A stretch of 64,000 nucleotides of DNA from the NCBI RefSeq assembly GCF_945957465.1, contig NZ_CAMFLC010000011.1, forward strand, positions 1-64,000, written 5' to 3'. Below are positions 24,039-64,000 of the stretch, one piece after another (within the stretch, counting starts at the first letter, position 1; each line of letters opens with the position of its first letter). Both the position numbers and the translations under genes were made by a program. The stretch comes from an uncultured Leifsonia sp. Lineage in GTDB: Bacteria; Actinomycetota; Actinomycetes; Actinomycetales; Microbacteriaceae. Below the pieces are notes generated by a model, which saw only the letters and a list, made by a program, of their open reading frames with translations, was not told where the DNA came from and ran no database searches.

Positions 24039-24059
24039 GCCACTCACCTCCGATCCCAT

Positions 24060-28950: not shown

Positions 28951-29186
28951 CCCCGTCAGGACGGCGCACCTCCGCGGTCCGATTCGGCCGTGCTCCGGAC
29001 CGAAGACGTTTCACACTCCATGCGCACACACTGCCGCCACGTGGCTGGGAGACCCGGGCCGAAAGTCACGCGGGCCCGGCTCGTCCGTCGCGGCCCGGCG
29101 GATCGAGGGCGATCCGGTCCCTGTGGACAGGGAGGTGATCTGAGCCGGCGGGCTCGGTTGATGACCGCCGTCGTTAGTGTGGTCGC

Positions 29187-29552: not shown

Positions 29553-29652
29553 GGCCGTTCCGATCGGCACGCGCTGGGATGGTTGGTCTCGGCTTTCCCC
29601 TTATCGCTGCTCCGCACGTTGGGGCGTTCGAGTTGGGTCAGGCCGTTGCGGC

Positions 29653-31678: not shown

Positions 31679-31907
31679 AGGGCCACGCTAGCAATCCTCC
31701 GGGTCGCAGCGGGCCCTTGGCCTGTTTCTCTCAAGCGAGCTACGGGGGCGGCTACCTCCGCGCCCGCGTCGAGAGAGCAAGACCCTCCGCGATACAGATT
31801 CAGCCGCTTTGGCTGCCCTTAGGGCTGGCATTGAGTGGCCGCTGCCCCATAACGCGTATCGCGGAAGAATGAATGCATTTCGGTATGCTGCCATTCGAGG
31901 GGGCCGC

Positions 31908-33378: not shown

Positions 33379-36300
33379 GTGTCCCGGCTTTCGAATGGAC
33401 GTGACGTCCGCGACGCCGGGACCGAGCGCGCTCCGGAGGCCGGTCGCGCTAGTCGTGGGGATTCACCGCTGAGGCTGTGGCACCGGGCCGTGTGGATGCC
33501 CGTGGCGATGCTCGCGGCGGTCGCGTTGGCCGTGTCGCAGGCGGCCGTTCTCGGGGTTTCCGGGGCAGCGGTCGCGGCTGATTCGCCCAGCGTGAGCGCG
33601 CACTCCACGACGCAGCAGCTGCGGCTGGTGCCGCTTGCCGGGCCCCCGTACGCGGTCGTCCGGACGACCACGGTCACCGTGCCGGGGACGCCGGTCCAGC
33701 CGCCGGTTCCGGGCCAGCCGACGACTCAGGTTCGGCGAGTCATGAAGGTCGATCCGAAGCTGCTCGCGGCGATCGTGGCGGCAGCGGCGGCGGAGCTCGC
33801 GCGGCAGCGGAGCGCGGCAGCGAGCACCACGACGACGGCACCGCGGACTACGCCGACGCCGGGCGGGACCAATTGCGTCAGCAGTGGGAGCACGCCGAGC
33901 TCGGCGCCGTCGCAGGCGCCGACATCCACCAGCGGGAACGGGACCGTTACCAGCTCGACCAGCACGTCGACCTCGAGCAGCACCCTGACCTGCGGGCCGG
34001 GCACGACCGGGCCGACGCAGCTGGGCGGCAGCACGTCGACTCCGACGCCGACGTCCTCGCCGACGCCGACGCCGACTCCCACGCCGACGCCGACTCCCAC
34101 GCCTACACCGCCCCCGACTCCCACGCCCACCCCGACCCCGGCGCCGACGGACACATCGGCCCCGGTGTCGAACGACGCCGGCGCGGCGACGGGCGTCATC
34201 CTCGGCTCGCGTGGACTGTCGCGCGCGCCGTCCACGGTGACGCTCGCGTCGCTCGGCGTCGCGACGGCCCTGCCCGCGGATGCCGCGGCACCCGCCGACA
34301 CCACCGCGGGAGCCACGAGCGCTCCGGCGGACTCCGGTGCCTCGACCGACCCGAGCACGGCGACGAATACGACGAGCCCGGCCCCCGCGCCGGCGACGGA
34401 TGCGACGCCCACCCCGGCCCCGACCTCCGATCCCGTTCCGGCCGCGACCGACCCGGCCACCACCGCCGCTCCGGCAACCACCACCCCGACCACGACGGAT
34501 CCAACGACCCCCTCGACCACAGACCCCGCGGCCACCGCTCCGGCGACGACTGCCGCAGCACCGACCGACCCGGCCACCAGCTCCACCGACCCGGCCACCG
34601 CATCCACGTCGGCCCCCGCCAGCGCATCCGCTCCGGCGACCTTCGCGGCCCTCGCCGCCCCGGCGGCGACGCCGGCGCAGTGGACGTACGCACCCGATGC
34701 GGGCACGTCCGCACACACCATCTCGGTGCGCGTCGACGGCACCGACCTCGTCGTGACCGACAACGGCGTCGAGACGCGGCGGGCGCTGGCCGACCTGACG
34801 GCGCTCAGCGTGACGACGGTCGGCGGGCAGGTGATCGCGATCACGTTCGACACGTCGGCCGGTCCGATCACGGTTCCCGTCACGTACGCGGGCACGGGCG
34901 CCGACCTGCTGAAGGTGATCGGCGACCAGCTGCAGTGGACCGTCGGAGCGGCGGGCGCGGGCAGCGTCAGCGGCTCCGGCCTCGCATCTCTCGACTACAC
35001 GGGGGCGGCGACCATCACGGCGGCGGGCAGTGGCAGCACGCTCCGCGGGCCGGGCAGCGACACCGCCTGGACCGTCGACGGCGCCGACGCGGGAGCGGTC
35101 GCCGGTCAGCAGTTCAGCGGCTTCGCGAACCTGGACGGTGCGGCGGGCAACAAGGACACCTTCACGTTCGAGCACGGCGGCAGCATCAGCGGCACGGTCG
35201 ACGGCGGCAGCAGCGGCTTCGACAGCCTCGTGCTCCACGGTGTCAGCGGCCAGGTGGTCAGCACGCCGAGCGGCGCCCACTCCGGCGCGATCACCTTCGA
35301 GGGACACACGATCTCGTATGCGGGGCTGGAGCCGATCACGGTCACCGGCACCGCCGACCTCGTGGTCACCGGCAACACGGCGAACGACACGTTGCAGGTC
35401 GGACCGGGCACCGGCGGCCAGCTCACGGTGTCGAGCCTGATCGGCGCGATGGAGTCGGTGTCGTTCACGGCCCCGACCGGGTCGCTGAAGATCGTCGACA
35501 CGGCGAGCGGGGTGACCGTGGTCGTGATCGGCGACCTGATCCTCGCCGGCGCGAACCTCGAGATCGACGCACCGACGATCGTCGTCGACTCCGGCGTGAC
35601 CATCGACACCCGCAGTGCGGGAGGCACGGGCACCGTGACCCTCGCCGCGGCGGACACGCAGACCGGCGCCTCGCCCGCGACGGCATCCGTGACGATCGAC
35701 GGGGCGACCATCCACGCGAAGACGATCGACCTGGAGGCGACAGCGTCGCAGACGCCCGGCGCGGGATCCATCCCGGGCATCAACACGGTCAGCGCCTCAT
35801 CGGCGGCGACCGTCGCGGTGCTCGGCGCGTCGCTGCTCGACGCGACCGGCGATGTCACGCTGCGCAGCTCGTCCACGATGCAGGCGGACGTCACGTCGAG
35901 CGGCACGGGCGCCAGCACGAACGTGGATGCGGCCGTCGCGACCGCGGACATCGACAGCACCGCGATCACCCACGTGTCGGACGCCTCCGCCGTCTCCGCC
36001 GGCGGCGTGCTGATGGTGGTCGCCAAGAACCAGACACAGGTCACCACGACCGGCGACGCGACAGCGGCGACGGCGGGAGCCGGGATCGCCGTCTCGCACG
36101 TGACGACGAACACGGCGGCGTACATCGACACGCACAGCAGCAGCGGAGTGAACGCCGGGAGCCTGGTCGTCGCGGCCGACTCCGACACCACCGCGGTGAC
36201 CATCGCCAAGGCGAGCCCGGGCGGCTCGACCGGCAACAACGCCAGCCCCAGCGACAGCACATCCACCGCGTCGCACCCGGGCGGCTACGCGAACGCCCCC

Positions 36301-39300
36301 GGAGGCGCGATCCTCGTCGCCGGCGCGCTGGCGTTCACGGACGTGTCGCAGCAGACCACCGCGTACATCGCGCCGGTCGGCGGCGGACTGGTCATCGCGG
36401 TCTCCGGCAGCAGCGGCCCGACCGCGGGCTCGGCTCCGATCTCGGTGCACGCCGGATCGTCCGGCACGGCCACCAGCGCGGCCGACGGCAGCGGGGTGGG
36501 CGGCAGCTCGGCCGGTGTCGGCACGGCGGTCGCGGTGACCGTGGCCGGGGTCGACACCTCGTCGTACGTGGGCAACGTCACGCTCGACGCACCGAACGCC
36601 CCGACGCCGGCGACCGTGTCCATCGACGCCACGGCGCAGCAGCCGACGACCGGGACGGCGAACACCTACGGGGCGACCTCGACCTCCGGAGCCGGCGGGT
36701 CCGCGAGCGTCGGGGTGGCCGGGTCGCTCGCGGTCAACGTCGTCACGCTGAACACGCGTGCCGGCGTCGCACCGGGCGGCGCGGTCGACGTCGGCGGGTC
36801 GAACGTCACGATCGGCGCACGGTCCAACAACGCGAACAACGCGCAGGCGCTGCCGGGGACGGTGTCCGGCACGACGGTCGGCATCGGCGCGGCGGTCGCG
36901 TTGAACATCGTCAACGACTCCACGTCGGCGGGCCTCCAGAACGGGGCGGTGCTGAGCGGGGCAAACGATCTGACGCTCGCCTCGAGCGCGAGCTCGCCGG
37001 CGACCACGGAGGCGCACGGCGGAGCGGCCTCCCCGGACATCGCCATCGCCCCGGTCATCGCGATCACCACCTCCAACATCACGACGACCGCACTCGTCGG
37101 GACGGGCACGCCGCTGGTGCTCACCGGCACGTTCACGGCGACGGCCACCCAGCAGGCTCCGGTCTCGACGACGGCGACCGGCGAAGTGGATGCGTCTGGT
37201 GCGGCCGTCGGCATCGCCATCGCGCTGACCTTCGCGAACCACCTGGTGCAGGCGACGACGCTGCGGGATGTGACCGCGACGGGCGACGTGTCCTTCACGG
37301 CGACGGGAGCGTCGTCGACCACGACGACCGCGTCGGCCTCCGCATCCGGAGCACCGAGCGACGGCGCGCAGGCGACGCCGTCGGCGCAGGCCACGGACGC
37401 GCGCACCTTCGCCGACAACGCGGCCCCGACCACGGGCGGCGCGCTGCCGGGCGGCGGCGGAGGCAGCGGCGGAGCGACCCCGCCGCAGCCGAGCACCCCG
37501 GCGGGCATGGTGACCGCCGCCGCTGCGCTGGCCCTGACCATCCACACGGCGTCGGCCGACGCGTCCGTCACCGGGGTCGCGATCACCGCGGGCAACGTCA
37601 GCCTGCGCGCCACCCTCAACGACTCGGCGACCTCGACCGCCACCGGGACCCCGGCGAACCGCGGCCCACCGAGCACCGCCACCATCGCCGCAGCAATCGC
37701 CCTCACCCTGGCCGACGCAACCGTCCGTGCGAACGTCGGCCCGCAGACCACCATCCACGCGAAGTCCCTCGCCCTCTTCGCAGGAGTGAACCCCAGCAAC
37801 GCCGCCGGGGTCACCGACAGCACTGATCGCTTCACCACCACCGCGACGGCAGGCGCCGGCGGCGGCGGGACACTCGGAGTCGCCGGAGCGGTGGCCGTGT
37901 CCACCGTTGTCCTGACGACGACCGCCTCCCTCAGCGGCACCGCCATCACCGTGAACCTCTCCGGTGCGAGCGCGGACCTCATCGCCGCAGCATCCTCCGA
38001 CGTGGCCACCACCACCTCCGCCCTGATGGCCGACAGCGGATCCGGGACACCGACCACCGGGATCGGCGCGGCCTCCGCGGTCGGCATCGTGAACGACACG
38101 ACGGATGCGTCGCTCGGCGACGGCACGGTCGTCACCGGGGCGCGCGACATCCGGTTCACCGCCGATGCGCAGGACGCGCTCAGCGTCGTCGCGAAGGGCG
38201 GCGCCGCAGCCGCGAACGTCGCGGTGGCGCCGTACGCGGCGGTCGCGGTCTCCGACATCAGCACGAGCGCGGGGCTGGGCACCGGGACGCTGCTCGCGCT
38301 GAGCGGGACCCTCACGCTCGCGGCGACCCAGAAGGCCACGGCGGCGACCTCCGCGACCGGAGCCGTCGCAGGCGGTTCGGGCGCGGTCGGCCTCGGGCTC
38401 GCACTCACCCTGGCAACGCACACCGCGGTCGCGACCGCCGCACGGTCGGTCACGGCCGGCGGGGGGATCGGGCTGAGCGCCTCCGGGATCAGCGTCACGG
38501 CGGCGGCATCCACCGCGTCGTCCGCAGGCGCACCGCAGAACCCGGCCGACTCCGGCCAGGGCGCGGGCGGCGGCGCCGCAGGCTCGGGCGTCGACGACCA
38601 GGTGGCGGGGGCGCGATCGAACGCCGACGGGCTCGCGGCCGGCACCGGGGCGAACGGGTCCGGTTCGACGGCGACGCCCAGCGCGTCCACCTCCGACGGG
38701 AAGATCAACGTCGCGGCGGCGGTCGCGGTCATCGTCGCGAACACCGTCGCGCGCGCGACGATCGTCGGCACGGGAGTGGTCCTCACTGCGACCGGGCCGG
38801 TCACCATCGCGTCCGCGGCGAACACGGACGCGGGCACCACCGCAGACGGCTCGGCCGCGCACGGCGGCACCGCGACGATCGGCGCGGCGGTCGCGATCAC
38901 GCTGGCCAACACGACGAACGAGGCGCTCGTCCCGGTCGGGGACACCGTCGCCGCGTCGGCGCTCACCGTGTCGGCGACCGTCGCCGACGACGCGGGCGAT
39001 CACACCTCGACCATCGGCGCACAGGCGACGAGCGGAGCCGGGGCTCCCGACGCGAAGGTGTCGGTGGCCGGGTCGTTCGCGCTCGCCGTCGTCAACGCCT
39101 CCACGCTCGCCCGGGCCGCCGGGACCGTGACGCTCACGGGAGGCGGCCTGACGATCAGCGCCGGATCGAGCCTTTCCGCCACCGTCGCGGCCGACCCGAC
39201 CGACGGCTCGGGCGTGGCCTCGGGCACCGTGGGCGTGGGGGCGTCGGTCGGGCTCGACCTGGTCACCGCATCCACTCGGGCGGAGATCGCCGACGGCGGC

Positions 39301-42300
39301 ACCGTGACCGGCGCGGCGACGGTGACCCTCACGGCGACGGCGGGCAGCACGGTGACGGCCGAGGCGAAGATGGGAGCCGCCGGCGGCCAGGTCGCCGTGG
39401 TGCCCGCGGTCGCCGTCACCCTCGCGACGCTCACGACGGCGGCACGGATCGGGACGGGGGCCGCCGCGCTCGTCACGACCGGAGCGGTGCTCGTGTCGGC
39501 GACGCAGACCGCGGTCGCGACGTCCACCGCGGGCGCCACGGCCGTCGGTGCGGGAACGGCCGGGGTCGGCATCGGCCTCGCCCTGGTGATCGTGAACGAC
39601 ACGGCGACCGCGACGACCGCCCGCTCGATCACGGCCGGCGGCGCGATCCTACTCACGGCGTCCGGCGCGGACACGAGCACGGCGACCGCCACGGCCTCGG
39701 CGGGCGGCGCGCCCGAGAACGCAGCCGCAGGCTCCGGCGGCGGAGGCGGTGGCGGAGCGGGCTCGGGAGTCGACGACCAGGTGGCCGCGCAACGGAGCAA
39801 CGCGTCCGCGGTCTCGACCGCCAACGGAGGAGCGGGAGCGGGATCGACGGCGACGCCGAGCGCATCCACCTCCGACGGGAAGGTCAACGCGGCCGCGGCC
39901 GTCGCCGTCGCCGTGGCGACCACCGCCTCCCGTGCGACGCTCGAAGGGACGGGACTGACGCTCACGTCCGGCGGGCTCGTCACCATCGCATCGTCGGCGA
40001 ACACCGACGCGTCGACCTCCGCCGACGGGTCGGCCTCGCAGGGGACGGATGCGACGATCGGCGCCGCCGTCGCCGTGACGCTGGCGGACGCGACGAACAC
40101 GGCGACGCTGCCGGCCGGCGACACGGTGGCAGCACACGCGCTGACCGTGTCGGCGACGGAGACGGCAAACGGCGCGGACACGACGTCCGCCTACGGAGCC
40201 CATGCCGTATCGGGCGCGGGCGGCGGAAAGGTCTCGGTCGCGGGATCGCTCGCCCTGGCGATCGTGAACCAGACGACCGGCGCCCTCCTGGCCGGGGCGG
40301 CGCACCTCACCGGCGGCGACCTGACGCTGACGGCAGGATCGGCGGCGACGACGACGGCAGCCGCGCTGCCCTCGGCGGCCGGCGTCAGCTCCACGAACCT
40401 CGGCGTCGGTGCGTCGGTCGCGCTGGCGATCGTCACCGACACGACGACGGCGACCATCGACGACGGCGCCGCACTCACCGGCGCGGCCGGTGCGAGCCTC
40501 ACGGCGACGGCGACGGATGCGGCCACGACGGAGGCCCGGATGGGCGCAGCCGGCGGCAAGGTCGACGTCGCGCCCGCGGTCGCGGTCACCCTCGCGACGG
40601 TGACGACCGCGGTTCGGGTCGGTGTCGCGGGAGGCGGCGGTGCGATCGCGGTGAGCGGCGCCTTCGCGGCGACCGCGACGCAGGTCGCGACGGCCGGCTC
40701 CACCGCGGGCGCCGTCGTCGCGGGCGGCTCGACGGCGGCCGTCGGCATCGCACTGGCACTCGCCATCGCAACCGATTCCGTGCTCGCGTCCACCGCCCGC
40801 TCGCTGACCGCCGGGACCCTGACCCTCGCTGCCGCGGGGACCAGCAGCTCGAACGCGAACTCGACGGCCAGCGCATCCGGCGCTCCCGAGAACGGCGTGA
40901 CCGCCGGCGGCTCGGGAGGCGGCGGCGCAGGCGACGGCGTCGACCAGCAGGTCGCGGCTCAGCGGAGCAACGCGGATGCGACGGCCGCGGCCAACGGCGG
41001 AGCGACGTCGGGCACGACGAGCACGCCGAGCGCGTCCACCTCCGACGGCTCGGTCAACGCGGCGGCGGCGGTCGCCATCGTGCTCGCGAGCACGACATCC
41101 CGGGCCACGGTGGTCGGCAGCGGGGCGGTGCTGAGCTCGGGCGGAGCCGTCACCCTGTCGTCGTCGGCGAACACCGATGCGGCGACCACGGCCGACGGTT
41201 CGGCGTCGCAGGGCACGACGGCGACGATCGGCGCGGCGGTCGCGGTCACGCTCGCGAACGTGACCAACGAGGCGGTGCTGCCGGTCGGAGACACCATCGA
41301 CGCGCGTTCTCTCACCCTCAGCGCGACGGTGACCCCCGATGGCGCAGACACCGGTTCGAGCATCGGGGCCCAGGCGACCTCCGGCGCAGGCGGCGGAAAG
41401 GTCTCGGTCGCCGGGTCGCTCGCGCTCGCCATCGTCAATCAGCGCACGAACGCCGAGCTCACCGGGAACGTCGCGCTCAGCGGAGGCGACCTCGCCCTGA
41501 CGGCCGTGTCGAACCTGGCGACGACCGCCACGGCGCAGCCGACCGCGGGCGGCGTCTCCTCCACCGGCGTGGGGGTGGGCGCATCGGTCGCGCTGGCGAT
41601 CGTCACCGATACGACGAGCGCAGCCATCGACGATGCCGCGGCCGTCACCGGCGCGGCCGACCTGACCATGGTCGCGACAGCCGCGGATGCGGCCGCGACC
41701 GAGGCGAGGATGGGCGCGGCCGGCGGGAAAGTCGACGTCGCACCGGCCGTCGCCGTGACCCTGGCGACGGTGACCACGACGGCCCGCGTCGGAACCGGCG
41801 CGGCACTCACCGTCAGCGGCGCGTTCGCCGCAACGGCCACACAGCGGGCGACCGCGACGTCCGTCGCCGGGGCCGTGGTGACCGGCGGCTCGACGGCCGC
41901 GGTCGGCATCGGGCTGGCGCTGACGCTGGCGACCGACGCGGTCAGCGCGCGCACCGCCCGCTCGATCACCGCCGGGACCACGCTCACGCTGAACGCATCC
42001 GGGATCTCCGGGTCGTCGGCGTCGGCGACGGCGTCCGCCTCAGGCGCGCCGGAGAACGGGGCGACCGGGTCGGGCAGCGGCGGCGGAGGCGGCGCGGGCG
42101 ACGGCGTCGACCAGCAGGTCGCAGCGCAGCGGAGCAACGCCGACGCGACCGCTGCGGCGAACGGCGGTTCGGGATCGGGCACGACCAGCACCCCGAGCGC
42201 GTCGACCTCCGACGGCAAAGTCAACGCCGCCGCAGCGGTCGCGATCGACCTGGCGACCACCGGCTCGCGTGCGACGGTGGAGGGGACGGGCGTGGCGCTC

Positions 42301-57300: not shown

Positions 57301-60300
57301 ACGACGGCCGAACTGCGCGCCCCGGTCCTCGCCTCCGGCTCCGTGCTCGTGAAGGCGGCGGGGGACAGCACGGCCGACGCCTCCAGCACGAGCGCCGGCC
57401 TCGGGCTCCTCACCGTCACGCTCGCGCTCGTCGACGCGGAGGTCCAGTCGACCGCCGGTGTCGTGGCCATCGCGACCGGCGGCAGCCTCACCTCCAACGG
57501 CACCGTGCAGGTCGTCGCCACCGGTGCGAACAGCGCGACGACCCGCACCGATGCCGCCAGCATCGGTCTGTACGCGGGAGCGGCGAACGCCTCCACCGCG
57601 CTGGTCGCCGACGAGACCCGCGCCGAACTGGCCGACTCCGTCCACAGCCAGGGACTCTCGGTCACCGCGGATGCGACCAGCGCCGCGACCGCGACCTCCG
57701 CGGTGGTCTCCATCGGGCTGATCACCGCGTCGTACGGCGACACGGTCGCGAAGGTGACCTCGTCGGCGGGCGTCCAGGCGCTGGTCGACTCCACCGCCAC
57801 GACCGTCGACGCCGGGGCGGGTGCGGTGCTCGTCCACGCCGGTTCGGCGAACAGCGCCACCTCGACGCCGACCCGGACCTCCGGTGGCGGCATCGCGCTC
57901 CTCGGGCTGTCGCCCGTCGCGAACGTCGCGGCCGCCACCACCGCGCAGTTCGACGGCGGCACCACGACCTCCGGCGCCTTCACCGTCTCGGCGAGCGGCC
58001 ACAACACGGCGAAGGCCACCGCGGATGTCAGCAACTTCAGCATCGGCGGCGTCACCGGCGTGGTCGTGCTCGCCGACATCGCGCCGAGCGCCACGATCGC
58101 CGCCGGTGTCGGCGCCGGCGCGCGCATCACGGCGGCCGGCCAGTTCACCGTCTCGGCGCTCAATCCGGGCGGCAACAGTGCGGACGCGGAGGCGAGCAGC
58201 ACCGCGGGCGGCGTCATCGCGGCCGGCGTCTTCTTCACCGGCGCGACGATCGGCGCGCCGGTGTCGGCCACGATGAACGGCTCGCTGCTCGCGTCGACCG
58301 GCGCCACCGTCTCGGCGGCGGCGACAAGCGTCGTCACCGCCCTGGCGAACTCGCTGAACATCAGCCTGGCCGGAATCACCGCGGCCCTGGTGGATGCCGA
58401 ACTGCTCGCCTCGGCGGGCGTCACCGCCCACTACGGCACCGGAGCACTGGCCACCAGCGGCGACGGCGCCGTCACGGCCACCGCGGCGAACACCGTCACC
58501 GCGACGACGGACACGGCGTCCGGCGGGGTGTTCGAGTTCGGGATCAGCGTGCCGACCGGGCGAATCGCCGCAGCGACGTCGGCGGGCTTCGGGGGCGTCC
58601 TCACGCTGGCGACCGGGCTGACCGTGCAGTCGACCGCGACCAACACCGTCTCGACGACCGCCGGAGCGCGCAGCTACGGCGCGATCGCCGCGACCACCTC
58701 GTCGCCGCTCGCGACCATCACCAGCGCGGTCGTCACCACCGCCGCCATCGAGCAGAGCGCGCTGCTGAACGCTCCGAGCGCGGCCGTCGTCGTCCTCGCG
58801 AGCGCGACCGGGACGACGACGGCGAAGGGCGGATCCGTCAACGGCGGCCTCGGCACGGTGTCGTCCGCGCGGCCGGCTGCGACCGACCAGGCGCAGACGT
58901 TCGCGACGATGCTCGGAGCCGCCCACGGCGCGACCGCGACGACTCCCGGCGCCCGCTCGATCACCGTGCAATCCAGCACCGTGGACACCACGACGGCCCT
59001 GATCAGCGACACCAGCGGAGCGGGCGTCGCGATCTCCGACGCCGGCGCGACGGCCACGACCCAGACCACCGCCGAGACCGACTTCGGGTCGGCGAACGCG
59101 CCGATCGTCACCGTCGGCGACATCACCATCGGGGTCGCCTCCAACCCGGTGTCGATCTCGTCCGCGCTCAGCGACTCGGTGGGCATCCTGCTCAACATCG
59201 ACTCCAACAACGCGACGGTCGTCAACTCGCCGACCGTCACCCTCCTGGTGAACAAGAGCGCACGCATCTACGCCGGCGGCACCGTCACGCTGAGCGCGCA
59301 GCAGAACACGACAGCACCGCCCAGCCTCAACCACAGCGACTTCGACGGCGCCACCGGCGTGGACGTCGGCAGCAACACGATCACGTTCACCGCCCCGCAC
59401 TCGTTCACCACCGGCGGCACGGTGACCTACACGACCAACGGCGGCACCCCGGTCGGCGGTCTCACGAACAACGCGCAGTACAACGTCATCGTGGTGAACC
59501 AGAACGCGATCCAGCTCGGCTCGCTGTTCGACGCCGCCACCATCGACCCGGCGACCGACGCCATCCAGTTCGGCACCGGGACGGGAGCCGACTTCGTCCC
59601 GCTCCGCCACAACCTGCACGAGGGCGACCTCGTCACCTACATCGTGCCGAGCGGCAGCACCGCTGTCCCCGGACTCGTGTCGGGCCGTCAGTACCGCGTC
59701 CACGTGATCGACGACTCCGACATCCAACTGTTCGACCCGTCCACCCCGACCGGAGCGGTCACCGCCACCGGCTCGAACGTCACAGGCGGCGACACGATCA
59801 CCGCGGGGAACAGCTACAGCGACGGTCAGGCCGTCACCTACACGAACGGCAACGCGCTCCAGTCGTTCACCACCGACCAGGTCGAAGTGGCGGTCGACGG
59901 CAGCTTCAAGCCGATCATCTCCGGCAACCCGCCGGCGCTCACCTACGTGGACGACAACACCATCACGATCCCGAACAACGGCTTCACCACCGGCCAGGCG
60001 GTCGTCTACGAGGGGGCGACCGACCCGATCGGCGGCCTCGTCAACGGCGCCACCTACTACGTGATCAGGCTCAACGGCAACCAGATCCGCCTCGCCGCGA
60101 ACCTGTGCGACGCCACCGGCACCTGCGTCGACGGCAGCAACAACCCCATCCCGGTGACCCCCATCGCGCTCACCCCGGACCGTTCGGATGCGGGACGCGC
60201 GGTCATCCACCGCTTCTTCACCCCGGGTCAGCAGCCGATCACCGGACTCGAGGACGGCGGCCGGTACTACATCGTCGGGGCGACTTCCACCGGCTTCCAG

Positions 60301-63300
60301 CTCGCCACCACCCCGGGCGGCACGGCGATCGCTCTCGACGGGACCGGGATCACCGGACCCGGGACGTTCACCCCGGCCCCCGTCGACCTCGGTGCGGGCG
60401 GAGGCGGCAGCCAGCAGCTCGTCATCGACCTGACCAGCGTCGGATCGGGCACCCAGACCCTCTCCGCGGTCGGGATCACCGGCAGCACCGCCGGCGGCGG
60501 CCAGCTCTCCACCGCGACCGTCAACGGCTCCGGCGGCGGCATCATCAGCTCGGGCCACGCCAACACGTCCGCGACCGAGGCCGCCGCGGTCACGGTCACC
60601 ATCGACGAAGGCGCGACGATCACCGCCGGCGGCTCGATCGTCCTCACCACCGCCTCCAACGCCGGGGTCAGCGCCGACTCGGCCAACGGCGGCGGCGGCC
60701 TGGTCGCCATCGGCAGCGCCGCGGCCCAGTCGAGCACCACCACCACGACCACCGTCACGATCGCCTCGGGCACCGCGCTCACCGCCGGCGCCGACGTGAC
60801 GATCGACCCGCTCACCTTCGGCCAGGCCACAGCGCTCTCGCAGTCGCACGCGGGCGGCCTCGGCTCCGGCGTCAGCTCGTACGCCGGGGCGACCCTCACC
60901 ATCAGCACGGTGACCACGGTCGCCGGCACCATCCTGGCCGGGAACGACATCGCCGTGACGGCCCACACGGCGGCGAACGGCAACGTCAGCACGAACGCGG
61001 AAGGCGGCGGCCTCGGAGTCTCCGCACACGCCGGCACCTGCGGCGGCCCGCAGTGCGACCTCAACATCGGCATCACCACGACGGTCGACCTGAAGCCCTT
61101 CGCGCACCTCACCGCCGACAACGTGAACGTCACGGCGAGCGTCGACAGCGTGTTCGCGCACAACAACTCGCACACGCACGCGAAGGCGCTCGGTGCCGCG
61201 TCCGACGCCCAAGCGGATGTCTACCTCACCAGCAACACGCTCGTGCACCTCGAGCACGACGTGAAGATCGTCGGCTACGAGTCGGTCACGCTGGTCGCCG
61301 TCAACGACACGATCACCCTGATCGCCTCCTCGGATGCCCACTGCGGCTGCCTCGGCGGCGACACCAACTCGACCTCGAACATCAGCTACAACGGCACCTC
61401 CACCGTCACCGCGGACCTCGGCTCGGTCATCCGCACCGCGGTCCTCGAGGTCGACGCGCTCGAGAACCTCACCGGCTGGAGCCGCCCGACCGACTCCGAC
61501 GGCGCGGCGTTCGACGGCGGCGGCAGCCACGGCGGCACCAACGAGAACGCGCAACGCCTGATCCAATGGCACGCGACCGTCTACCTGCACGCCGCCGACC
61601 CGCAACTCGTGGTGGACGAGACCGGCCGGATCGTGAAGCTCTACGGCGTCGTCGTGAAGGACGACCTGGGCAACACGTACGGCCTGGGCTCCCTCATCCC
61701 GGCCGGCCGCATCATCGACGTACAGGACATCGTCAACGCCGGGGGAGCGCACGCCACCTTCTACGCGAACGTCGTCGGCTCGCAGGCGGGCGGCAGCGCG
61801 CCGCAGGGTTCGATCGTCGGCACCGACGGCAGGTTCATCGTCCAGAACACATTCGACTTCGTGAAACTGTACAACTCGTCCAGCCGTTCCATGACCGTGC
61901 ACGCGATCACGGTCGCGAACCTCACCGCGGTGGCCGCGACCGTCGACATCACGACCGAGATCAGCTCCGGGTTCCTGTTCACGATCGGCGCGCCGATCTT
62001 CGTCCCGACGGCCGTCGACATCGAGAACTACGTGGTCTCCGGCAACGGCACCGACCAGCTCGTCCTCGACGGCGTCATCGCGAACCCGATCGGGTCGACC
62101 CGCATCGACAACCAGCACGGCGACATCCTCGCCGGGCCCGACCGGCCGGCCGTCATCACCAACACGCTCGTCATCCTCGCCGACGACGGCACCATCGGCC
62201 TGCTGGACGCATCCACCGGTGTGCGGGTGCCCATCCCGGTCTACCTCGTGCAGAGCGACTACCTGGTCGACGACGTCGACCCGACCCGGTTCGTCTCGCT
62301 GATCGCGGACGCGCGGGTGGATGTCGTGCTCGACATCACGTCCATCCTGCGAGGGCCGCCGAGCGCGTTCACGCCGACGCTGCCGCTCATCCACGCCGGA
62401 CGCGACATCGACATCGTCCTCGGCGACAGTCTGCAGGGCGACGGCGTGCCCGCGTTCGGGGCGAACGCCATCCAGGTCAACGACCAGCAGACTCCCGCGC
62501 TCTCGGGGCTGTACCAGCTGTTCTTCCACCCCGACAACGGTGTCTTCGGGTACAGCGACCCGGTGCTGGTCGCCTTCGGCACGGACAACACCCCGTTCCC
62601 GAGCACCTACGTGTTCTCCGACCTCAGCGCCGGCCGGAACATCGGAGTGCGGCACACCGCGACCGGCGCGACCGTCGTCATCGTCGCCCACACCGACGTG
62701 GATGCGACGTTCACGGGCATCGAGCTGCCCATCCCGTTCTCGACCAGCGACGGCATCGGCGAGATCGACCTCTCCACCGACGGCTCGATCACCGACACCG
62801 AGACCATCGGCGATCTGCGGGTCGGCACCATCACCTCCACCGGCGGGGATGTGACGCTCATCGCCCCCGACCTCGGTGCCTCCATCTTCGACGTCGGCGC
62901 GGCCGACGACACCGCGCCGCGCGTCACGGGCAACACCATCACGCTGCTCGCTCCGACCGGCGGCATCGGCTTCGTCTCGCCGACCGTGAACTACCTCGAG
63001 CTGCGCTCCTCCAACGCCGCACGCGGACACGTCTACGCGCTCGCGCTGCACGGCATCTACCTGGCGCAGACCTCCGGCGCGCTCTACGTCGGCCTCGTCG
63101 ACTCGCTCACCGGGGATGTGGCACTCATCGCCGACGACGGCTCCATCCAGAACGATGTGGACGGCACCACCGCCGAGGTCATCGGCACGAACATCGACCT
63201 GATCGCGCACAACGGCTCGATCGGCACGGCGTCCGGCACCGGCGCCTCCGACCTGAAGGTCGCCACCGACGCCCTGCACGGCGGCCGGCTCTTCGCCCTC

Positions 63301-64000
63301 ACCGACCGAACCTCCGCCCTTCCGGCCGGAAGCGCGCCCAACGGCGACATCTACGTCACCCAGACGGCCGGCGCCCTCCGCGTGCTCAGCGCCGAGTCGC
63401 AGTTCGGCGACGTGCGCCTGACCGTCCCGTTCGCCACCGGACGCACCGACGCCGACCTCGAGCTGCTCGGCGCGGGCAGCACGCTGGACGGGGCGATCAC
63501 CCTCGCCGAGGGCCGGATCGTCGCCCTCGGAGACGTCACCCTGCGCATCGGCGACAACCTCGACACCGCCGTCACCAGCCTCATCCAGGGCGCGACGGTC
63601 ACCATCCAGGGGGAGTACCTGCAGAACCCGCTCGCCCCGGTCGGGTCGACCATGCACTTCGCGGGCACGGTCACCGGGCACCCCACGAACGTCTTCGGCG
63701 GCAACGGCGTCGACACCTACCTCTTCGACCACACCTTCCTCGGCGGGCAGACGAACGTCTACGGCGGAGCGACCGCGACCGCGGCGGCCACCGGATCCGA
63801 CGGCAACGACGTGTTCGTGGTCGACCACCTGCAGACCATGACCGGCACCCACCTCGACACCACGACGGATCCGTACGCCGGGCTGCCCGTGCGCGACACC
63901 CTCCTCCTCGACGGCCAGACCGGCAGCAACAGCTACACGGTCGACACCTGGGGCGGCGCCGACGCCCTCGACCACGACTACGTGCTCAACGTGCTGAACT
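33379..64000 (+). CDS. Giant secreted beta-repeat surface protein, incomplete at the window edge
   Basis: One plus-strand frame runs from GTG 33379 (after TTTTGGGGGTG) to the window end with no stop noticed, giving at least 10,207 codons; ATG 33337 and 33496 are alternative starts. A signal peptide is at about residues 30-67 (MPVAMLAAVALAVSQAAVLG, cleavage near AVAA|DS). Pro/Thr/Ala stalks follow (about 219-435). A beta module (about 435-660) includes ATITAAGSGSTLRGPGSD and AGLEPI. Tandem 390-codon repeats extend to about residue 6,010, then degenerate V(G/A)VGA-type modules, GGL..G..YY modules, and a long beta-rich region with RTX-like GGNGVDTYL near 10,107. It is Ala/Thr/Gly-rich with few Cys, like giant adhesins or biofilm matrix proteins. 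Attachment signals lie beyond the window. Exact function unknown. Confidence 0.88.
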   Translation, partial: MSRLSNGRDVRDAGTERAPEAGRASRGDSPLRLWHRAVWMPVAMLAAVALAVSQAAVLGVSGAAVAADSPSVSAHSTTQQLRLVPLAGPPYAVVRTTTVTVPGTPVQPPVPGQPTTQVRRVMKVDPKLLAAIVAAAAAELARQRSAAASTTTTAPRTTPTPGGTNCVSSGSTPSSAPSQAPTSTSGNGTVTSSTSTSTSSSTLTCGPGTTGPTQLGGSTSTPTPTSSPTPTPTPTPTPTPTPTPPPTPTPTPTPAPTDTSAPVSNDAGAATGVILGSRGLSRAPSTVTLASLGVATALPADAAAPADTTAGATSAPADSGASTDPSTATNTTSPAPAPATDATPTPAPTSDPVPAATDPATTAAPATTTPTTTDPTTPSTTDPAATAPATTAAAPTDPATSSTDPATASTSAPASASAPATFAALAAPAATPAQWTYAPDAGTSAHTISVRVDGTDLVVTDNGVETRRALADLTALSVTTVGGQVIAITFDTSAGPITVPVTYAGTGADLLKVIGDQLQWTVGAAGAGSVSGSGLASLDYTGAATITAAGSGSTLRGPGSDTAWTVDGADAGAVAGQQFSGFANLDGAAGNKDTFTFEHGGSISGTVDGGSSGFDSLVLHGVSGQVVSTPSGAHSGAITFEGHTISYAGLEPITVTGTADLVVTGNTANDTLQVGPGTGGQLTVSSLIGAMESVSFTAPTGSLKIVDTASGVTVVVIGDLILAGANLEIDAPTIVVDSGVTIDTRSAGGTGTVTLAAADTQTGASPATASVTIDGATIHAKTIDLEATASQTPGAGSIPGINTVSASSAATVAVLGASLLDATGDVTLRSSSTMQADVTSSGTGASTNVDAAVATADIDSTAITHVSDASAVSAGGVLMVVAKNQTQVTTTGDATAATAGAGIAVSHVTTNTAAYIDTHSSSGVNAGSLVVAADSDTTAVTIAKASPGGSTGNNASPSDSTSTASHPGGYANAPGGAILVAGALAFTDVSQQTTAYIAPVGGGLVIAVSGSSGPTAGSAPISVHAGSSGTATSAADGSGVGGSSAGVGTAVAVTVAGVDTSSYVGNVTLDAPNAPTPATVSIDATAQQPTTGTANTYGATSTSGAGGSASVGVAGSLAVNVVTLNTRAGVAPGGAVDVGGSNVTIGARSNNANNAQALPGTVSGTTVGIGAAVALNIVNDSTSAGLQNGAVLSGANDLTLASSASSPATTEAHGGAASPDIAIAPVIAITTSNITTTALVGTGTPLVLTGTFTATATQQAPVSTTATGEVDASGAAVGIAIALTFANHLVQATTLRDVTATGDVSFTATGASSTTTTASASASGAPSDGAQATPSAQATDARTFADNAAPTTGGALPGGGGGSGGATPPQPSTPAGMVTAAAALALTIHTASADASVTGVAITAGNVSLRATLNDSATSTATGTPANRGPPSTATIAAAIALTLADATVRANVGPQTTIHAKSLALFAGVNPSNAAGVTDSTDRFTTTATAGAGGGGTLGVAGAVAVSTVVLTTTASLSGTAITVNLSGASADLIAAASSDVATTTSALMADSGSGTPTTGIGAASAVGIVNDTTDASLGDGTVVTGARDIRFTADAQDALSVVAKGGAAAANVAVAPYAAVAVSDISTSAGLGTGTLLALSGTLTLAATQKATAATSATGAVAGGSGAVGLGLALTLATHTAVATAARSVTAGGGIGLSASGISVTAAASTASSAGAPQNPADSGQGAGGGAAGSGVDDQVAGARSNADGLAAGTGANGSGSTATPSASTSDGKINVAAAVAVIVANTVARATIVGTGVVLTATGPVTIASAANTDAGTTADGSAAHGGTATIGAAVAITLANTTNEALVPVGDTVAASALTVSATVADDAGDHTSTIGAQATSGAGAPDAKVSVAGSFALAVVNASTLARAAGTVTLTGGGLTISAGSSLSATVAADPTDGSGVASGTVGVGASVGLDLVTASTRAEIADGGTVTGAATVTLTATAGSTVTAEAKMGAAGGQVAVVPAVAVTLATLTTAARIGTGAAALVTTGAVLVSATQTAVATSTAGATAVGAGTAGVGIGLALVIVNDTATATTARSITAGGAILLTASGADTSTATATASAGGAPENAAAGSGGGGGGGAGSGVDDQVAAQRSNASAVSTANGGAGAGSTATPSASTSDGKVNAAAAVAVAVATTASRATLEGTGLTLTSGGLVTIASSANTDASTSADGSASQGTDATIGAAVAVTLADATNTATLPAGDTVAAHALTVSATETANGADTTSAYGAHAVSGAGGGKVSVAGSLALAIVNQTTGALLAGAAHLTGGDLTLTAGSAATTTAAALPSAAGVSSTNLGVGASVALAIVTDTTTATIDDGAALTGAAGASLTATATDAATTEARMGAAGGKVDVAPAVAVTLATVTTAVRVGVAGGGGAIAVSGAFAATATQVATAGSTAGAVVAGGSTAAVGIALALAIATDSVLASTARSLTAGTLTLAAAGTSSSNANSTASASGAPENGVTAGGSGGGGAGDGVDQQVAAQRSNADATAAANGGATSGTTSTPSASTSDGSVNAAAAVAIVLASTTSRATVVGSGAVLSSGGAVTLSSSANTDAATTADGSASQGTTATIGAAVAVTLANVTNEAVLPVGDTIDARSLTLSATVTPDGADTGSSIGAQATSGAGGGKVSVAGSLALAIVNQRTNAELTGNVALSGGDLALTAVSNLATTATAQPTAGGVSSTGVGVGASVALAIVTDTTSAAIDDAAAVTGAADLTMVATAADAAATEARMGAAGGKVDVAPAVAVTLATVTTTARVGTGAALTVSGAFAATATQRATATSVAGAVVTGGSTAAVGIGLALTLATDAVSARTARSITAGTTLTLNASGISGSSASATASASGAPENGATGSGSGGGGGAGDGVDQQVAAQRSNADATAAANGGSGSGTTSTPSASTSDGKVNAAAAVAIDLATTGSRATVEGTGVALTAGGLVTLSSSANTDAATTADGSASQGATATIGAAVAITLANVTNQALLPAGDTVHAHALTVSATETADGTDTTSTYGAQATSGAGGGKISVAGSLALAVVNQTTTAELAGGVVLTGGDALVTAASIAASTVKAEPTAGGVTSTSVGVGASVALNLITDTTTAVLDDGITLTGAANVTLASTATDTATTEAKMGAAGGTVDVAPAIAVTLSNVTTTSRVGTTGGGLALSGAFSGTATQVASASTTAGAVVSGGTTAAVGVGLALTIANHTVTATTARSITAGTTLTLTASGVSSSDASASASASGAPENGATGSGSGGGGGAGDGVDQQVAAQRSNADATSTANGGKTSGAASTPSASTSDGKVNVAAAIALDLATTVSQATIVGTGLTLAAGGLVTLASSANTDAGTTADGSASQGATATIGAAVAITLANVTNQALLPTGDTVHAHALTVSATETVNGADVTSTYGAQATSGAGGGKISVAGSLALAVVNQTTTAELAGNVVLTGGDLTVTAASAATSTVKAEPTAGGVTSTNVGVGASVALNLITDTTTAVLDDGISVTGAANVTLASSAADAATTEAKMGAAGGKVDIAPAVAVTLSNVTTTATVGTLGAGLSLTGSFAGTATQVASASTTAGAVVSGGSTAAVGVGLALTIANHTVTATTARSITAGGDLSLRASGVSSSDASASASASGAPENGATGSGSGGGGGAGDGVDQQVKTQRDNADATSAANGGTTSGAATTPSASTSDGKVNVAAAIALDLATTVSQATIVGTGLTLTAGGLVTLASSANTDAATTADGSASQGATATIGAAVAITLANVTDQALLPTDDTVHAKALTVSATETVNGADVTSTYGAQATSGAGGGKISVAGSLALAVVNQTTTAELAGNVVLTGGDASIVAASSAASTVKAEPTAGGVTSTSIGVGASVALNLITDTTTATLDDGISLTGAANVALESTATDTATTEAKMGAAGGKVDIAPAVAVTLSNVTTTSRVGTTGGGLTLSGAFSGTATQVASASTTAGAVVSGGSTAAVGVGLALTIANHTVTATTARSITAGTTLTLTASGVSGSSASAAASASGAPENGATGSGSGGGGGAGDGVDQQVAAQRSNADATSAANGGKTSGAATTPSASTSDGKVNVAAAIALDLATTVSQATVVGTGLTLTAGGLVTLASSANTDAATTADGSASQGATATIGAAVAITLANVTNQALLPTGDTVRAKALTVSATETVNGADVTSTYGAEATSGAGGGKISVAGSLALAVVNQTTTAELAGGVVLTGGDALVTAASNAASTVKAEPTAGGVTSTNVGVGASVALNLITDTTTAVLDDGISLTGAADVTLTATAGDAAVTEAKMGAAGGKVDIAPAVAVTLSNVTTTAKVGTLGAGLGLTGSFSGMATQVASASSTAGAVVSGGSTAAVGVGLALTIANHAVTATTARSITASGGIALVASGISGSSAGASASASGAPENGATGSGSGGGGGAGDGVDQQVKTQRDNADATSAANGGKTSGAATTPSASTSDGKVNVAAAIALDVATTISQATIVGTGLALTAGGEVTLASSANTDATTTADGSASQGATATIGAAVAITLANVTNQALLPAGDTVHAKALTVSATVTANGADAIATYGAEATSGAGGGKISVAGSLALAVVNQTTTAELAGNVVLTGGDATIIAASNAASTVKAEPTPGGVTATNVGVGASVALNLITDTTTAVLDDGISLTGATDVTLSATAGDAAVTEAKMGAAGGKVDVAPAVAVTLSNVTTTAKVGTLGTGLALSGAFSGTATQVASASTTAGAVVSGGSTAAVGVGLALTIANHTVTATTARSISAGTTLTLTASGISGSSASASASASGAPENGATGSGSGGGGGAGDGVDQQVAAQRSNADATSTANGGKTSGAASTPSASTSDGKVNVAAAIALDLATTVSQATIVGTGLTLAAGGLVTLASSANTDAGTTADGSASQGATATIGAAVAITLANVTNQALLPTGDTVHAHALTVSATETVNGADVTSTYGAQATSGAGGGKISVAGSLALAVVNQTTTAELAGNVVLTGGDATITAASNAASTVKAEPTPGGVTATNVGVGASVALNLITDTTTATLDDGISLTGAADVTLTATAGDAAVTEAKMGAAGGKVDIAPAVAVTLSNVTTSARLGVLGSAIVLTGSFSASAAQVAGAASTAGAVVSGGTTAAVGVGLALTIANHTVTATTARSITAGGDVALVASGISGSSASAAASASGAPENGATGSGSGGGGGAGDGVDQQVKTQRDNADATSTANGGKTSGAASTPSASTSDGKVNVAAAVGIDLATIVARATLERTGLDLTAGGLVTLASRANTDAASAADGSASHGATATIGAGVAITLANVTDQAILPVGDTIHAHALTVSATVTPNGADTTSTYGAQAVSGAGQGKISVAGSVALAIVNQATLAELSGTVTLTGGDVAVTAASNATSTVSAEPTPGGVTATNVGVGASVALNLITDTTVALLDDGIAVIGAHDFALSATAGDIATTDAKMGAAGGKVDVSPAIAVTISNVRTSASIGTLAANGTIVLTGSFSAIARQTAGATTSAGSVATGGSSASIGVGLALTLVTHTVTSTTGRNITAAGGIAFGAFGSSVDGATASASASGAPQQGDAGAPSGGVDGQAQKERDNAIGTDTANGGSGSTASASPSAASSDGKVSVAAAIAVNIADVTATSTLPDGLALTAGGVVSLKSSENVDGAVKADGTAVKAANVGVGAAVALNLVHITNRSFLGQRTRVTGNGLQVQATMTALGADSTHTFTVEADAGAGSKKIGVAGALALNIVTDTTEAFIPGTATVAAGTGDVAFIAENLRSDSAKALADASIGGGGTVGVGASIAINVLTTNVTRAEVEDGAVLTGGRAVTLSATSADPVVNQVTAGSAGSSVAVSPAVGINIVTPVTTARLGTPSAAGTPAAGGLTAAGAVLITATHTGSASITGDAKAASSSVAVGAIIAVNVLLVTTTAATARNIAGASVILTATTTTSGSADVTASAQGTTPGTGGSADGQSKDAVQNTPSTSGNEGLLPTGSSSAGGAVGGANTESSGQSGQSSGQGVGVGAAVSVNVVTDTNTASVAAGLTITAAGAIGVSAVNSTDALAKAVGTSTAINSNNIGAGIALNVATVTNAGSIGAGATIAGGSILVQGITAAGAENDFTVWGISAAGGAGDVGVAGSVGVQVLTLANTAVVGAGSRLAAAGALVLAASDPMGLQSIAGAGGLSLDGSGVGAAIVVNVLAVSTLAHIDSSAQQPTVIDAGGAISLSATASIVPLGISLIPAVQLPDVSGVAVAGGAGTSGVAVGGAFVIDVFDLTTQAYIADHASINQTIASSPGQSITIAASDDVRLFELAGSLGLSLGSVGVGISVIVGVINKDVRAYLGSSVNATVGGGVSLRATDPESYTEIAIGAAASQSAGVTGSIIVLVLNPGSSAPGTRAYIDGGAGRSTTVHAGGDVTVLASDDGGSFRLYAGQISVGGSAGVGISSAVLSRSSIVDAYIAAGDDIWAHGATGLTIGATQSASIELIAVGGSVGGSAGVAGSATVDVLNHTTHAHIDRGVTVNGVNTGASATEGVALYATDTTTIRGIAGQLAVGGSAGVGAGADVEVLSKDTQAWIAPQVLVAANGSVTVDATSKEDVTSISAGASAGGAVGVALNAAVPVFTIVTEAFVGEVCTAGTITAAACATSRTTILAGGSARIAANEQLTLSVIAGSLAIGGEVGVGASAAVPVVTKTTTAFIGDNSIVNALGNGAGITTGTGGFTVTAVDTRFTPATAIEADGRTIDLGYAHGFTEGQQVLYDNGGGASIGGLTQGGVYYVHVISAHEVQLSATQGGAIIALTQPVRGGESQRILPTDRAAAPVAAGQYFTPSLDVSGNVITLPYDLTLATGDPVVYRAGGGTAIGGLVDGRTYYAIVTGPHSFELAATACQADPSGSTCSGAVQTPITLDAATAGADRAHSILRQGDQPPGDAASVTGISVVTPNTVAGFRGVAVTANNSDTIGGYGVAAGFGTVGVSVSGSVNIVTANTSASIGRIAQVNTGNAGASSAQSVIVGAGNAFQLLMVAASVAAGAVGVGANAAVGIVTVNTDSTIGAGAVVDAARDVIVSATASDRVTAVAAAAAGGAVGVAGVAAVIVLALHTYADTGAGVTVVAGNNVLIAAHDASKLTVVSGGLAVGAVGVGIGVAVTSLSKDTRAFVGAGSSVDALAQQPGVALAGVFDGTVGATGFGVLPAFHGLAVQAGSSENVFGMAVTAGGGFVGVAGALNVTLVHTTTLAFIDSNALNRTRIDLLPGAGSLQSINVSAADLVTTFTIGGGLAAGFVGVAGGIDIGVADVTAQAYIGSYATVHAAKDVSFFALTSKQIQTYAISVGGGFVGAAGSVSVWGVGTQPTGSYNEGSYGTDRGTWSGSTAYKQGDVVTGSDGKRYGATSNNTGVNPVGDASGTWEGSTDSLNTSSSSPDAATEAGGHANGAGQGGFQGILDGTANMHNTSDNTNGRMQPSLVAANQTVHAAAPGSNIVSSEFSNSVAAGTVATIGANTVIVIGGGLNVGAAEDLGFAGVAGTAAGGAVAVGGSILIARITSNVEASIQTGVSVTAGGGVRVATALTETDDGLGFAGVGGLVAVFGQVVLITSHATQNAHIDSGAVIPTAGGVVDVEALATRTVSPLSIGGSIGAVAAGASVAVATIDGDTTATIGNVAIGSLAPAGGIVERAQSTIVAPVQAYSVAAGIGGGISGAVAVATIDGATSAAYSGHATLSGGASISAVGVNTPTTSTLSVATGAITSGINVARAITNRTTTARFAGGSSVSAGGAVTVSAASTNHASAQTPSAALSLIGFSLLLPIATVTGATEAHLDGVVSASGSITVAASGQNQAIADAFVVTVSLLGGGQGVSALASVTQAADVLASVGSTASLSSVGAVSVTATIVSDGSHGDYAKATVTSGGGGLISAGAFVASALLAGATTAELRAPVLASGSVLVKAAGDSTADASSTSAGLGLLTVTLALVDAEVQSTAGVVAIATGGSLTSNGTVQVVATGANSATTRTDAASIGLYAGAANASTALVADETRAELADSVHSQGLSVTADATSAATATSAVVSIGLITASYGDTVAKVTSSAGVQALVDSTATTVDAGAGAVLVHAGSANSATSTPTRTSGGGIALLGLSPVANVAAATTAQFDGGTTTSGAFTVSASGHNTAKATADVSNFSIGGVTGVVVLADIAPSATIAAGVGAGARITAAGQFTVSALNPGGNSADAEASSTAGGVIAAGVFFTGATIGAPVSATMNGSLLASTGATVSAAATSVVTALANSLNISLAGITAALVDAELLASAGVTAHYGTGALATSGDGAVTATAANTVTATTDTASGGVFEFGISVPTGRIAAATSAGFGGVLTLATGLTVQSTATNTVSTTAGARSYGAIAATTSSPLATITSAVVTTAAIEQSALLNAPSAAVVVLASATGTTTAKGGSVNGGLGTVSSARPAATDQAQTFATMLGAAHGATATTPGARSITVQSSTVDTTTALISDTSGAGVAISDAGATATTQTTAETDFGSANAPIVTVGDITIGVASNPVSISSALSDSVGILLNIDSNNATVVNSPTVTLLVNKSARIYAGGTVTLSAQQNTTAPPSLNHSDFDGATGVDVGSNTITFTAPHSFTTGGTVTYTTNGGTPVGGLTNNAQYNVIVVNQNAIQLGSLFDAATIDPATDAIQFGTGTGADFVPLRHNLHEGDLVTYIVPSGSTAVPGLVSGRQYRVHVIDDSDIQLFDPSTPTGAVTATGSNVTGGDTITAGNSYSDGQAVTYTNGNALQSFTTDQVEVAVDGSFKPIISGNPPALTYVDDNTITIPNNGFTTGQAVVYEGATDPIGGLVNGATYYVIRLNGNQIRLAANLCDATGTCVDGSNNPIPVTPIALTPDRSDAGRAVIHRFFTPGQQPITGLEDGGRYYIVGATSTGFQLATTPGGTAIALDGTGITGPGTFTPAPVDLGAGGGGSQQLVIDLTSVGSGTQTLSAVGITGSTAGGGQLSTATVNGSGGGIISSGHANTSATEAAAVTVTIDEGATITAGGSIVLTTASNAGVSADSANGGGGLVAIGSAAAQSSTTTTTTVTIASGTALTAGADVTIDPLTFGQATALSQSHAGGLGSGVSSYAGATLTISTVTTVAGTILAGNDIAVTAHTAANGNVSTNAEGGGLGVSAHAGTCGGPQCDLNIGITTTVDLKPFAHLTADNVNVTASVDSVFAHNNSHTHAKALGAASDAQADVYLTSNTLVHLEHDVKIVGYESVTLVAVNDTITLIASSDAHCGCLGGDTNSTSNISYNGTSTVTADLGSVIRTAVLEVDALENLTGWSRPTDSDGAAFDGGGSHGGTNENAQRLIQWHATVYLHAADPQLVVDETGRIVKLYGVVVKDDLGNTYGLGSLIPAGRIIDVQDIVNAGGAHATFYANVVGSQAGGSAPQGSIVGTDGRFIVQNTFDFVKLYNSSSRSMTVHAITVANLTAVAATVDITTEISSGFLFTIGAPIFVPTAVDIENYVVSGNGTDQLVLDGVIANPIGSTRIDNQHGDILAGPDRPAVITNTLVILADDGTIGLLDASTGVRVPIPVYLVQSDYLVDDVDPTRFVSLIADARVDVVLDITSILRGPPSAFTPTLPLIHAGRDIDIVLGDSLQGDGVPAFGANAIQVNDQQTPALSGLYQLFFHPDNGVFGYSDPVLVAFGTDNTPFPSTYVFSDLSAGRNIGVRHTATGATVVIVAHTDVDATFTGIELPIPFSTSDGIGEIDLSTDGSITDTETIGDLRVGTITSTGGDVTLIAPDLGASIFDVGAADDTAPRVTGNTITLLAPTGGIGFVSPTVNYLELRSSNAARGHVYALALHGIYLAQTSGALYVGLVDSLTGDVALIADDGSIQNDVDGTTAEVIGTNIDLIAHNGSIGTASGTGASDLKVATDALHGGRLFALTDRTSALPAGSAPNGDIYVTQTAGALRVLSAESQFGDVRLTVPFATGRTDADLELLGAGSTLDGAITLAEGRIVALGDVTLRIGDNLDTAVTSLIQGATVTIQGEYLQNPLAPVGSTMHFAGTVTGHPTNVFGGNGVDTYLFDHTFLGGQTNVYGGATATAAATGSDGNDVFVVDHLQTMTGTHLDTTTDPYAGLPVRDTLLLDGQTGSNSYTVDTWGGADALDHDYVLNVLN
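34027..34680 (+). repeat. Pro/Thr/Ala-rich stalk-encoding region of the giant gene
   Basis: Dinucleotide-like coding repeats produce TPTPTP runs (34033-34160). After a short non-repetitive segment there is a second Ala/Pro/Thr/Asp-rich stretch (34282-34680). Such segments usually form extended, often glycosylated stalks between a secretion signal and a folded region. Confidence 0.85.
43189..43721 (+). repeat. 533-bp block identical to 47869-48401
   Basis: Line-by-line comparison shows no difference over 533 bp between this block and the one 4,680 bp (four repeat units) downstream, whereas sequence on both sides diverges at once. The block spans the Gly/Ser linker and most of the first two modules of a unit. 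Confidence 0.93.
47869..48401 (+). repeat. 533-bp block identical to 43189-43721
   Basis: Second copy of the identical block. Boundaries are set by the first mismatches: T/G at 43188 versus 47868, and C/T at 43722 versus 48402. Confidence 0.93.
53746..54180 (+). other. Pair of GGL-x-x-G-x-x-YY modules in the giant protein
   Basis: Two successive modules follow the pattern hydrophobic-GF.EGQ.V.Y..GG..IGGL..G..YYV.V.....QL. The first has IGGLTQGGVYYVHVI and the second IGGLVDGRTYYAIVT. The same module recurs several times near 59.3-60.4 kb. They are unlike the 390-codon repeat and resemble small beta-sandwich domains. Confidence 0.75.
59341..60370 (+). other. Cluster of GGL-x-x-G-x-x-YY modules in the giant protein
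   Basis: At least four further modules are visible: VGGLTNNAQYNVIVV, VPGLVSGRQYRVHVI, IGGLVNGATYYVIRL, and ITGLEDGGRYYIVGA. They share turns with D(L/P)VTY or Q(A/P)V.Y before the GGL motif. The cluster lies between the V(G/A)VGA modules and the C-terminal part of the window. Confidence 0.75.

Follow-up and report, generated by a model that had tools for sequence, protein, structure and literature searches.

A megadalton repeat protein with a putative wall anchor in an uncultured Leifsonia and its collinear relatives in Microbacteriaceae

Introduction

What would a bacterium make from a single reading frame of more than ten thousand codons, and is such a frame real? The question is raised by the first 64,000 nucleotides of contig NZ_CAMFLC010000011.1 (C11) of an uncultured Leifsonia sp. 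(assembly GCF_945957465.1), a stretch referred to here as the window (G000:C11:1-64000). The assembly is a draft of 4.06 Mb in 112 contigs. A sequence-only reading of the window had proposed that its last 30 kb encode one giant surface adhesin or matrix protein of an actinobacterium. The unbroken giant gene is confirmed as real and the giant, surface-type character of its product is borne out, while the interpretation as a whole is partly supported. With a probability of roughly 0.7, the product is an acidic, cell-wall-anchored beta-solenoid fibre of ~1 MDa, whose most likely job would be to attach the cell to surfaces, polymers or neighbouring cells. The sequence itself shows a single frame without a break, an N-terminus of signal-like character, a long body of repeats that includes ten 390-aa units, a C-terminal LAXTG tail and, elsewhere in the genome, one detected class E sortase.

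The Reading Frame and the Assembly

A scan of the full frame found zero stops over 10,314 codons at 33058-63999 on the plus strand, and on the next 18,664 bases of C11, which hold no N, the frame closes with a stop at 65404-65406. The proposed single frame of more than 10,200 codons thus stands, as does its Ala/Thr/Gly/Val-rich composition (19.2, 14.3, 13.9 and 10.1%, respectively). Read from the GTG at 33379, the protein has 10,675 amino acids, a mass of 1,005,626 Da and a pI of 4.3. A run of five G, six bases upstream of this codon, was noted by reading as a possible ribosome site. The earliest GTG in the open frame is at 33058, and a start there would yield 10,782 amino acids.

Since the assembly is a 112-contig draft, separate genes might have been stitched together or a repeat array inflated, and a 533-bp exact repeat is indeed present in copies at 43189 and 47869, 4,680 bp apart. 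In this draft the repeat makes the number of units in the array uncertain but does not affect the openness of the frame. Against an artefact stand collinear open orthologues, four of them in one-contig genomes, and the divergence of whole repeat units (64-89% DNA identity), even if identity rises to 97% in one 300-base stretch. Orthologous giant frames elsewhere, and a lower proportion of nonsynonymous than of synonymous differences (pN<pS) along the gene, serve as controls for the reality of the frame. A misassembled gene is thus highly improbable, and any assembly error would likely alter repeat copy number only.

Distribution and Conservation

Family, genus and order samples were searched with an 814-aa C-terminal segment. 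Counts include the present genome throughout: 15 of 398 genomes and 9 of 85 genera in the family sample, 8 of 396 genomes in the order sample, and a single genome, its own, out of 28 within the genus. A phylum sample searched with alignment A4 gave two matches among 396, the other being an 11,695-codon frame in another family. The two relatives G129 and G083 are Diaminobutyricibacter (now Leifsonia) tongyongensis and Humibacter sp. RRB41, both Microbacteriaceae, in agreement with the proposed actinobacterial origin.

Eight relatives possess uninterrupted frames of 9,646-11,108 aa from stop to stop. Two further copies, both in one-contig genomes, are interrupted yet collinear, with a shifted stretch between two breaks in G055 and one break in G250. 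G298 retains the C-terminal part, split over two contigs, and G133 gives a weak match only. Collinearity of the megadalton protein extends over five genera, a sixth having a split copy, and both its size and its anchor are kept. Near-full-length blastp alignments (9,682-10,912 columns) show 68% identity with L. tongyongensis, 61% with Humibacter sp. RRB41, 56% with G151, 48% with G349 and 41-42% with G204, G380, G291 and G152. In a nine-sequence alignment divided into 150-residue blocks, mean identity stays at ~50% along the body and departs from this at the N-terminal end and linker, in the C-terminal tail and over aa 4451-5200, a stretch in which the present protein has extra repeat units.

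The gene might instead be silent or decaying, its frame kept open partly by high-GC codon use while it is rarely expressed and being lost. Such a state would suit its occurrence in one genome of the genus, its location in a variable region, the frameshifts in two of ten collinear relatives, and the long antisense frame that high GC at third codon positions (GC3) maintains here and in four relatives. Nonetheless, the ratio of nonsynonymous to synonymous substitution rates (dN/dS, Nei-Gojobori) in seven pairs was 0.12, 0.18, 0.25, 0.26, 0.35, 0.45 and 0.54, although codon bias may depress dS, in which case the ratios would rise. The pairs share genomes and are not independent, and two of them cover 5,933 and 7,001 codons owing to an interrupted partner. 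Each of the seven pairs differs most at the third codon position, and pN<pS holds in every quarter of the aligned part. Nine collinear genes of 9.6-11.1 kaa, the present one included, are open, and relatives with a GC3 of ~0.89-0.91 have 7-41 antisense stops yet an open sense frame. Decay is accordingly considered quite unlikely.

The minus strand is itself open across 42040-63999, which amounts to >7,300 codons within the window. In total, 7,787 antisense codons are open, exceeding all 20 codon-shuffled controls (maximum 5,143), and a spacing estimate gives P ~0.03. An antisense gene was rejected despite these controls, as openness tracks GC3 across relatives: antisense stops number 0-1 in four relatives with a GC3 of 0.95-0.97, 4 in the present gene, 7 in G349 and 12-41 in the other seven.

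Among the more remote giants, HExGH-type motifs, suggestive of metallopeptidase modules, occur at both ends of G693 and at the N-terminal end of G649. A remote relative with interrupted frames also occupies more than half of a 54.9-kb circular plasmid of Rhodococcus antarcticus (NZ_CP110618.1, 8508-38452), where it is annotated as 'hypothetical protein'.

Anatomy of the Protein

From the N-terminus, the order of parts is a signal-like segment, a Cys pair, a Pro/Thr-rich linker, the N-terminal module, a ten-unit body, a region of LktA_tand_53 repeats, inserted modules with Cys pairs, and the tail. All features lie on the plus strand.

33379..64000 in the window, stop at C11 65406, +: giant open reading frame, 10,675 aa, 1.006 MDa; LAATG motif, hydrophobic span and basic tail at C11 65263-65403, beyond the window
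33379..33579, +: long extension at the N-terminus and a hydrophobic segment resembling a signal peptide (MPVAMLAAVALAVSQAAVLGVSGAAVAA), read from the translation
33874..33993, +: cysteine pair near the N-terminus (aa 273 and 312; pattern NC...CGPGT), seen in 9/9 uninterrupted collinear giants, the present one counted
34000..34737, +: linker of low complexity, rich in Pro/Thr/Ser and poorly conserved, with tandem repeats at 34033-34149
34678..36177, +: predicted N-terminal beta-solenoid module, aa 541-1040, whose aa 724-1040 may be similar to two-partner-secretion domains
38446..50151, +: ten repeat units of ~390 aa in an array, with a sub-period of 53-56 aa, from direct repeats, autocorrelation, a unit hidden Markov model (HMM) and AlphaFold of one unit
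53194..53355, +: best LktA_tand_53 (NCBIfam NF012206) repeat, within the piece 51958-54957, which as a whole scores 86.2 bits (cut-off 50) in four stretches
53695..54357, +: two small inserted modules; Cys pairs (aa 6792/6802 and 7046/7055) fall within or close to them; from alignment A3 and Cys positions
59305..60357, +: second set of similar-looking inserted modules, from reading of the translation only
63697..63714, +: sole RTX-like motif in the window, GGNGVD, from a motif scan

The modules named in the sequence-only reading fared unevenly. The hydrophobic signal-like segment (by eye) was found, as were Pro/Thr-rich sequence at 34033-34149 and ten arrayed units of ~1,170 bp, while the RTX-like motif proved too sparse to count. 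Comparable signal-like segments were seen by eye in all eight other uninterrupted collinear homologues. The linker varies far more, with a mean identity of 0.20 and gaps of 0.38 in the alignment block starting at 34258.

Autocorrelation returned periods of 390 and 53-56 residues together with a lag of 2, as expected for beta strands, and both the N-terminal module and the repeat unit are predicted by modelling to fold as beta-solenoids. The unit HMM detected 12-15 near-complete units in the nine uninterrupted giants, so part of their length difference reflects how many units each has. Relative to the reference unit, identity is 86-92% for five central units and 83% for the closest unit of L. 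tongyongensis, a sign that units are homogenised within the species.

Domain scans covered ten pieces of the frame at E<=0.01, the repeat units at 41158-49257 being left out. Over these pieces, NF012206 gave one match above its cut-off, four below it and five pieces without a match; in alignment A3 it was found at E<=0.001 in 12/12 members (47.6 bits for the present one). An RTX adhesin was rejected, since only three isolated GGxGxD motifs, one of them in the window, occur in 10,782 codons, nonapeptide GGxGxDxUx arrays are absent, and no RTX family was matched in the scanned pieces. Sequence searches of the PDB with alignments A1-A4 returned no matches at E<=0.01, and A2 at E<=10 gave one chance-level match only.

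Anchor, Sortase and Export

The sequence-only reading had placed the anchor past 64,000 and proposed extending the contig and searching for it. Extension uncovered the stop and a LAATG motif at 65263, although no anchor HMM matched the ten pieces at E<=0.01. The C-terminus reads LAATGSS, followed by the hydrophobic LLLLLGLGLLVGVA and a basic segment beginning RRDR. Tails of this type end all 11 collinear members (the present one included) and G298, with LAXTG in 9 of these 12, IAATG in one and LAxSG in two. The remote giants G076 and G095 have ends without LAXTG, G693 has IASTG ahead of a hydrophobic span as a possible variant, and the ends of G782, G649, G781, G427 and G881 were not reached.

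A single match to the sortase family PF04203 was detected in the genome, on contig C94 rather than C11. It belongs to class E (NF033747, 237.8 bits, cut-off 160). Sortases of this class were found above the cut-off in 14/14 giant-bearing genomes searched versus 1/14 control genomes; because actinobacteria use the class E enzyme for housekeeping, this co-occurrence lends weak support. Class E sortases are described as recognising LAXTG (PMC5148588), and by its sequence the giant qualifies as a candidate substrate that would be linked to the wall.

Export and anchoring partners had also been expected past 64,000. This was not borne out: the 11 downstream open reading frames (ORFs) searched (DNA polymerase IV and ten others, with seven small predicted ORFs left unsearched) match no sortase or secretion family. 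Accessory Sec export of the serine-rich repeat protein (SRRP) type was rejected, given that no second SecA_DEAD gene was found in any of five genomes, the present SecA being in two pieces at contig ends. A DsbA/thioredoxin-like ORF lies 16 kb downstream of the giant (C11 81160-82068, minus strand); the giant has spaced Cys pairs, but no link between the two is shown.

Proposed Function

As an anchored adhesive fibre, the chain would be exported by the ordinary Sec route and would fold outside the membrane, beginning at the N-terminal module. The class E sortase would then cut at LAATG and join the chain to peptidoglycan, leaving the N-terminal end outward on an extended fibre on the order of 0.2 micrometre. 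Its length would change as repeat units are gained and lost.

The same architecture might serve as a structural surface coat or biofilm-matrix scaffold, an acidic solenoid layer or mesh held by the sortase link, rather than as an adhesin. The Ala/Thr/Gly-rich composition, the low pI and the great length are all consistent with this, as is the lack of a recognised binding domain in the scanned pieces; the N-terminal member of the present genome has none even at E<=1, while CBM_X2 and choice_anch_D were matched weakly in single other N-terminal members. Against it, the body is constrained along its length, and the inserted modules and Cys pairs are conserved. A coat or scaffold is considered rather unlikely.

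Comparison with Known Systems

The possible resemblance of part of the N-terminal module to two-partner-secretion (TPS) domains invites a comparison with filamentous haemagglutinin (FHA), HxuA and EtpA. Unlike these, the giant carries a sortase tail and is without a TPS sequence-family match: none was found among Pfam and NCBIfam matches up to E 1 in 11 members of A2. A Foldseek comparison was not significant either. The giant is about three times longer than FHA, and Microbacteriaceae are monoderm. It is conceivable, albeit doubtful, that an FHA-type exoprotein has been re-tooled for one membrane, with a TPS-like cap starting a beta-helix of ~10,000 residues that is held by sortase E rather than a TpsB pore. 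If so, the TPS module would primarily be a folding start for beta-helices, its use as a pore signal being secondary. The giant also offers a test of whether a haemagglutinin-type beta-helix needs an outer membrane.

LktA_tand_53 proteins ('tandem repeat-containing filamentous protein') are alike in that the giant passes the family cut-off in 51958-54957. The founding protein is Gram-negative and smaller, and nothing in the giant points to toxin activity. The actinobacterium Mobiluncus mulieris also has a giant adhesin, of 7,651 residues; it is described as having 51 repeat Ig-like domains with cross-links, and is not a solenoid. The staphylococcal fibronectin-binding Embp/Ebh is likewise a repeat-built Gram-positive surface protein of ~1 MDa (PMC7587433, PMC11573180); its repeats are described as alpha-helical bundles (PMC7587433), in contrast to the beta structure of the modelled parts here. 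Giant1-5 of Apilactobacillus are also very large surface proteins, and Giant1-4 have an N-terminal beta-solenoid. They differ in their 3,000-8,000 aa, the alpha-helical repeat rods of Giant1-3, an SH3b-like C-terminus and the absence of a predicted transmembrane domain (PMC12863079).

Earlier work cited in PMC11573180 portrays giant bacterial genes as strain-specific; the present megadalton gene is, in contrast, collinear across five genera, and the family lets export, folding and wall-anchoring of a 1-MDa chain be tested in a monoderm. Among the publications listed, none describes a Microbacteriaceae LAXTG giant, which shows little, and proteins of this kind may already be deposited under generic names, as with the plasmid relative.

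Locus and Neighbouring Genes

The interval from tRNA-Arg to DNA polymerase IV spans 3.7 kb in the sister genome G010 versus 53 kb here, where it is filled by the giant together with several defence genes. Two more sisters were examined, and in their fetched stretch tRNA-Arg was not seen. No exact copy of tRNA-Arg of at least 13 bp occurs elsewhere on the contig, and an attachment-site repeat is thus not in evidence. In other genera, giants of the same genus have shared neighbours. For instance, in all four species of genus g58 (G204, G152, G291 and G380) it sits between the dnaK-grpE-dnaJ-hspR set and clpB, an identification confirmed by the family search in G204 only.

Recent horizontal gain was rejected as the sole explanation: the locus is variable, but trees of the giant and of rpoB agree on 7/8 splits, which makes descent with many losses an equally good fit. 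Both old descent with frequent loss and relocation, and an early transfer, fit these data.

Downstream of tRNA-Arg, a defence island of 62-71% GC (window 13100-33000) adjoins the giant gene and includes the following:

13193-14566: Mrr-type nuclease
14610-22751: four-gene set matching TIGR02677/02678/02680/02679 and PADLOC JetA2-JetB2-JetC2-JetD2, a Wadjet type II system near tRNA-Arg
29653-31578: Schlafen-type helicase
31809-32783: SRA-HNH nuclease

Further upstream, short GC-rich tandem repeats with periods of 11 bp and ~80-124 bp lie between predicted genes at 2821-3388.
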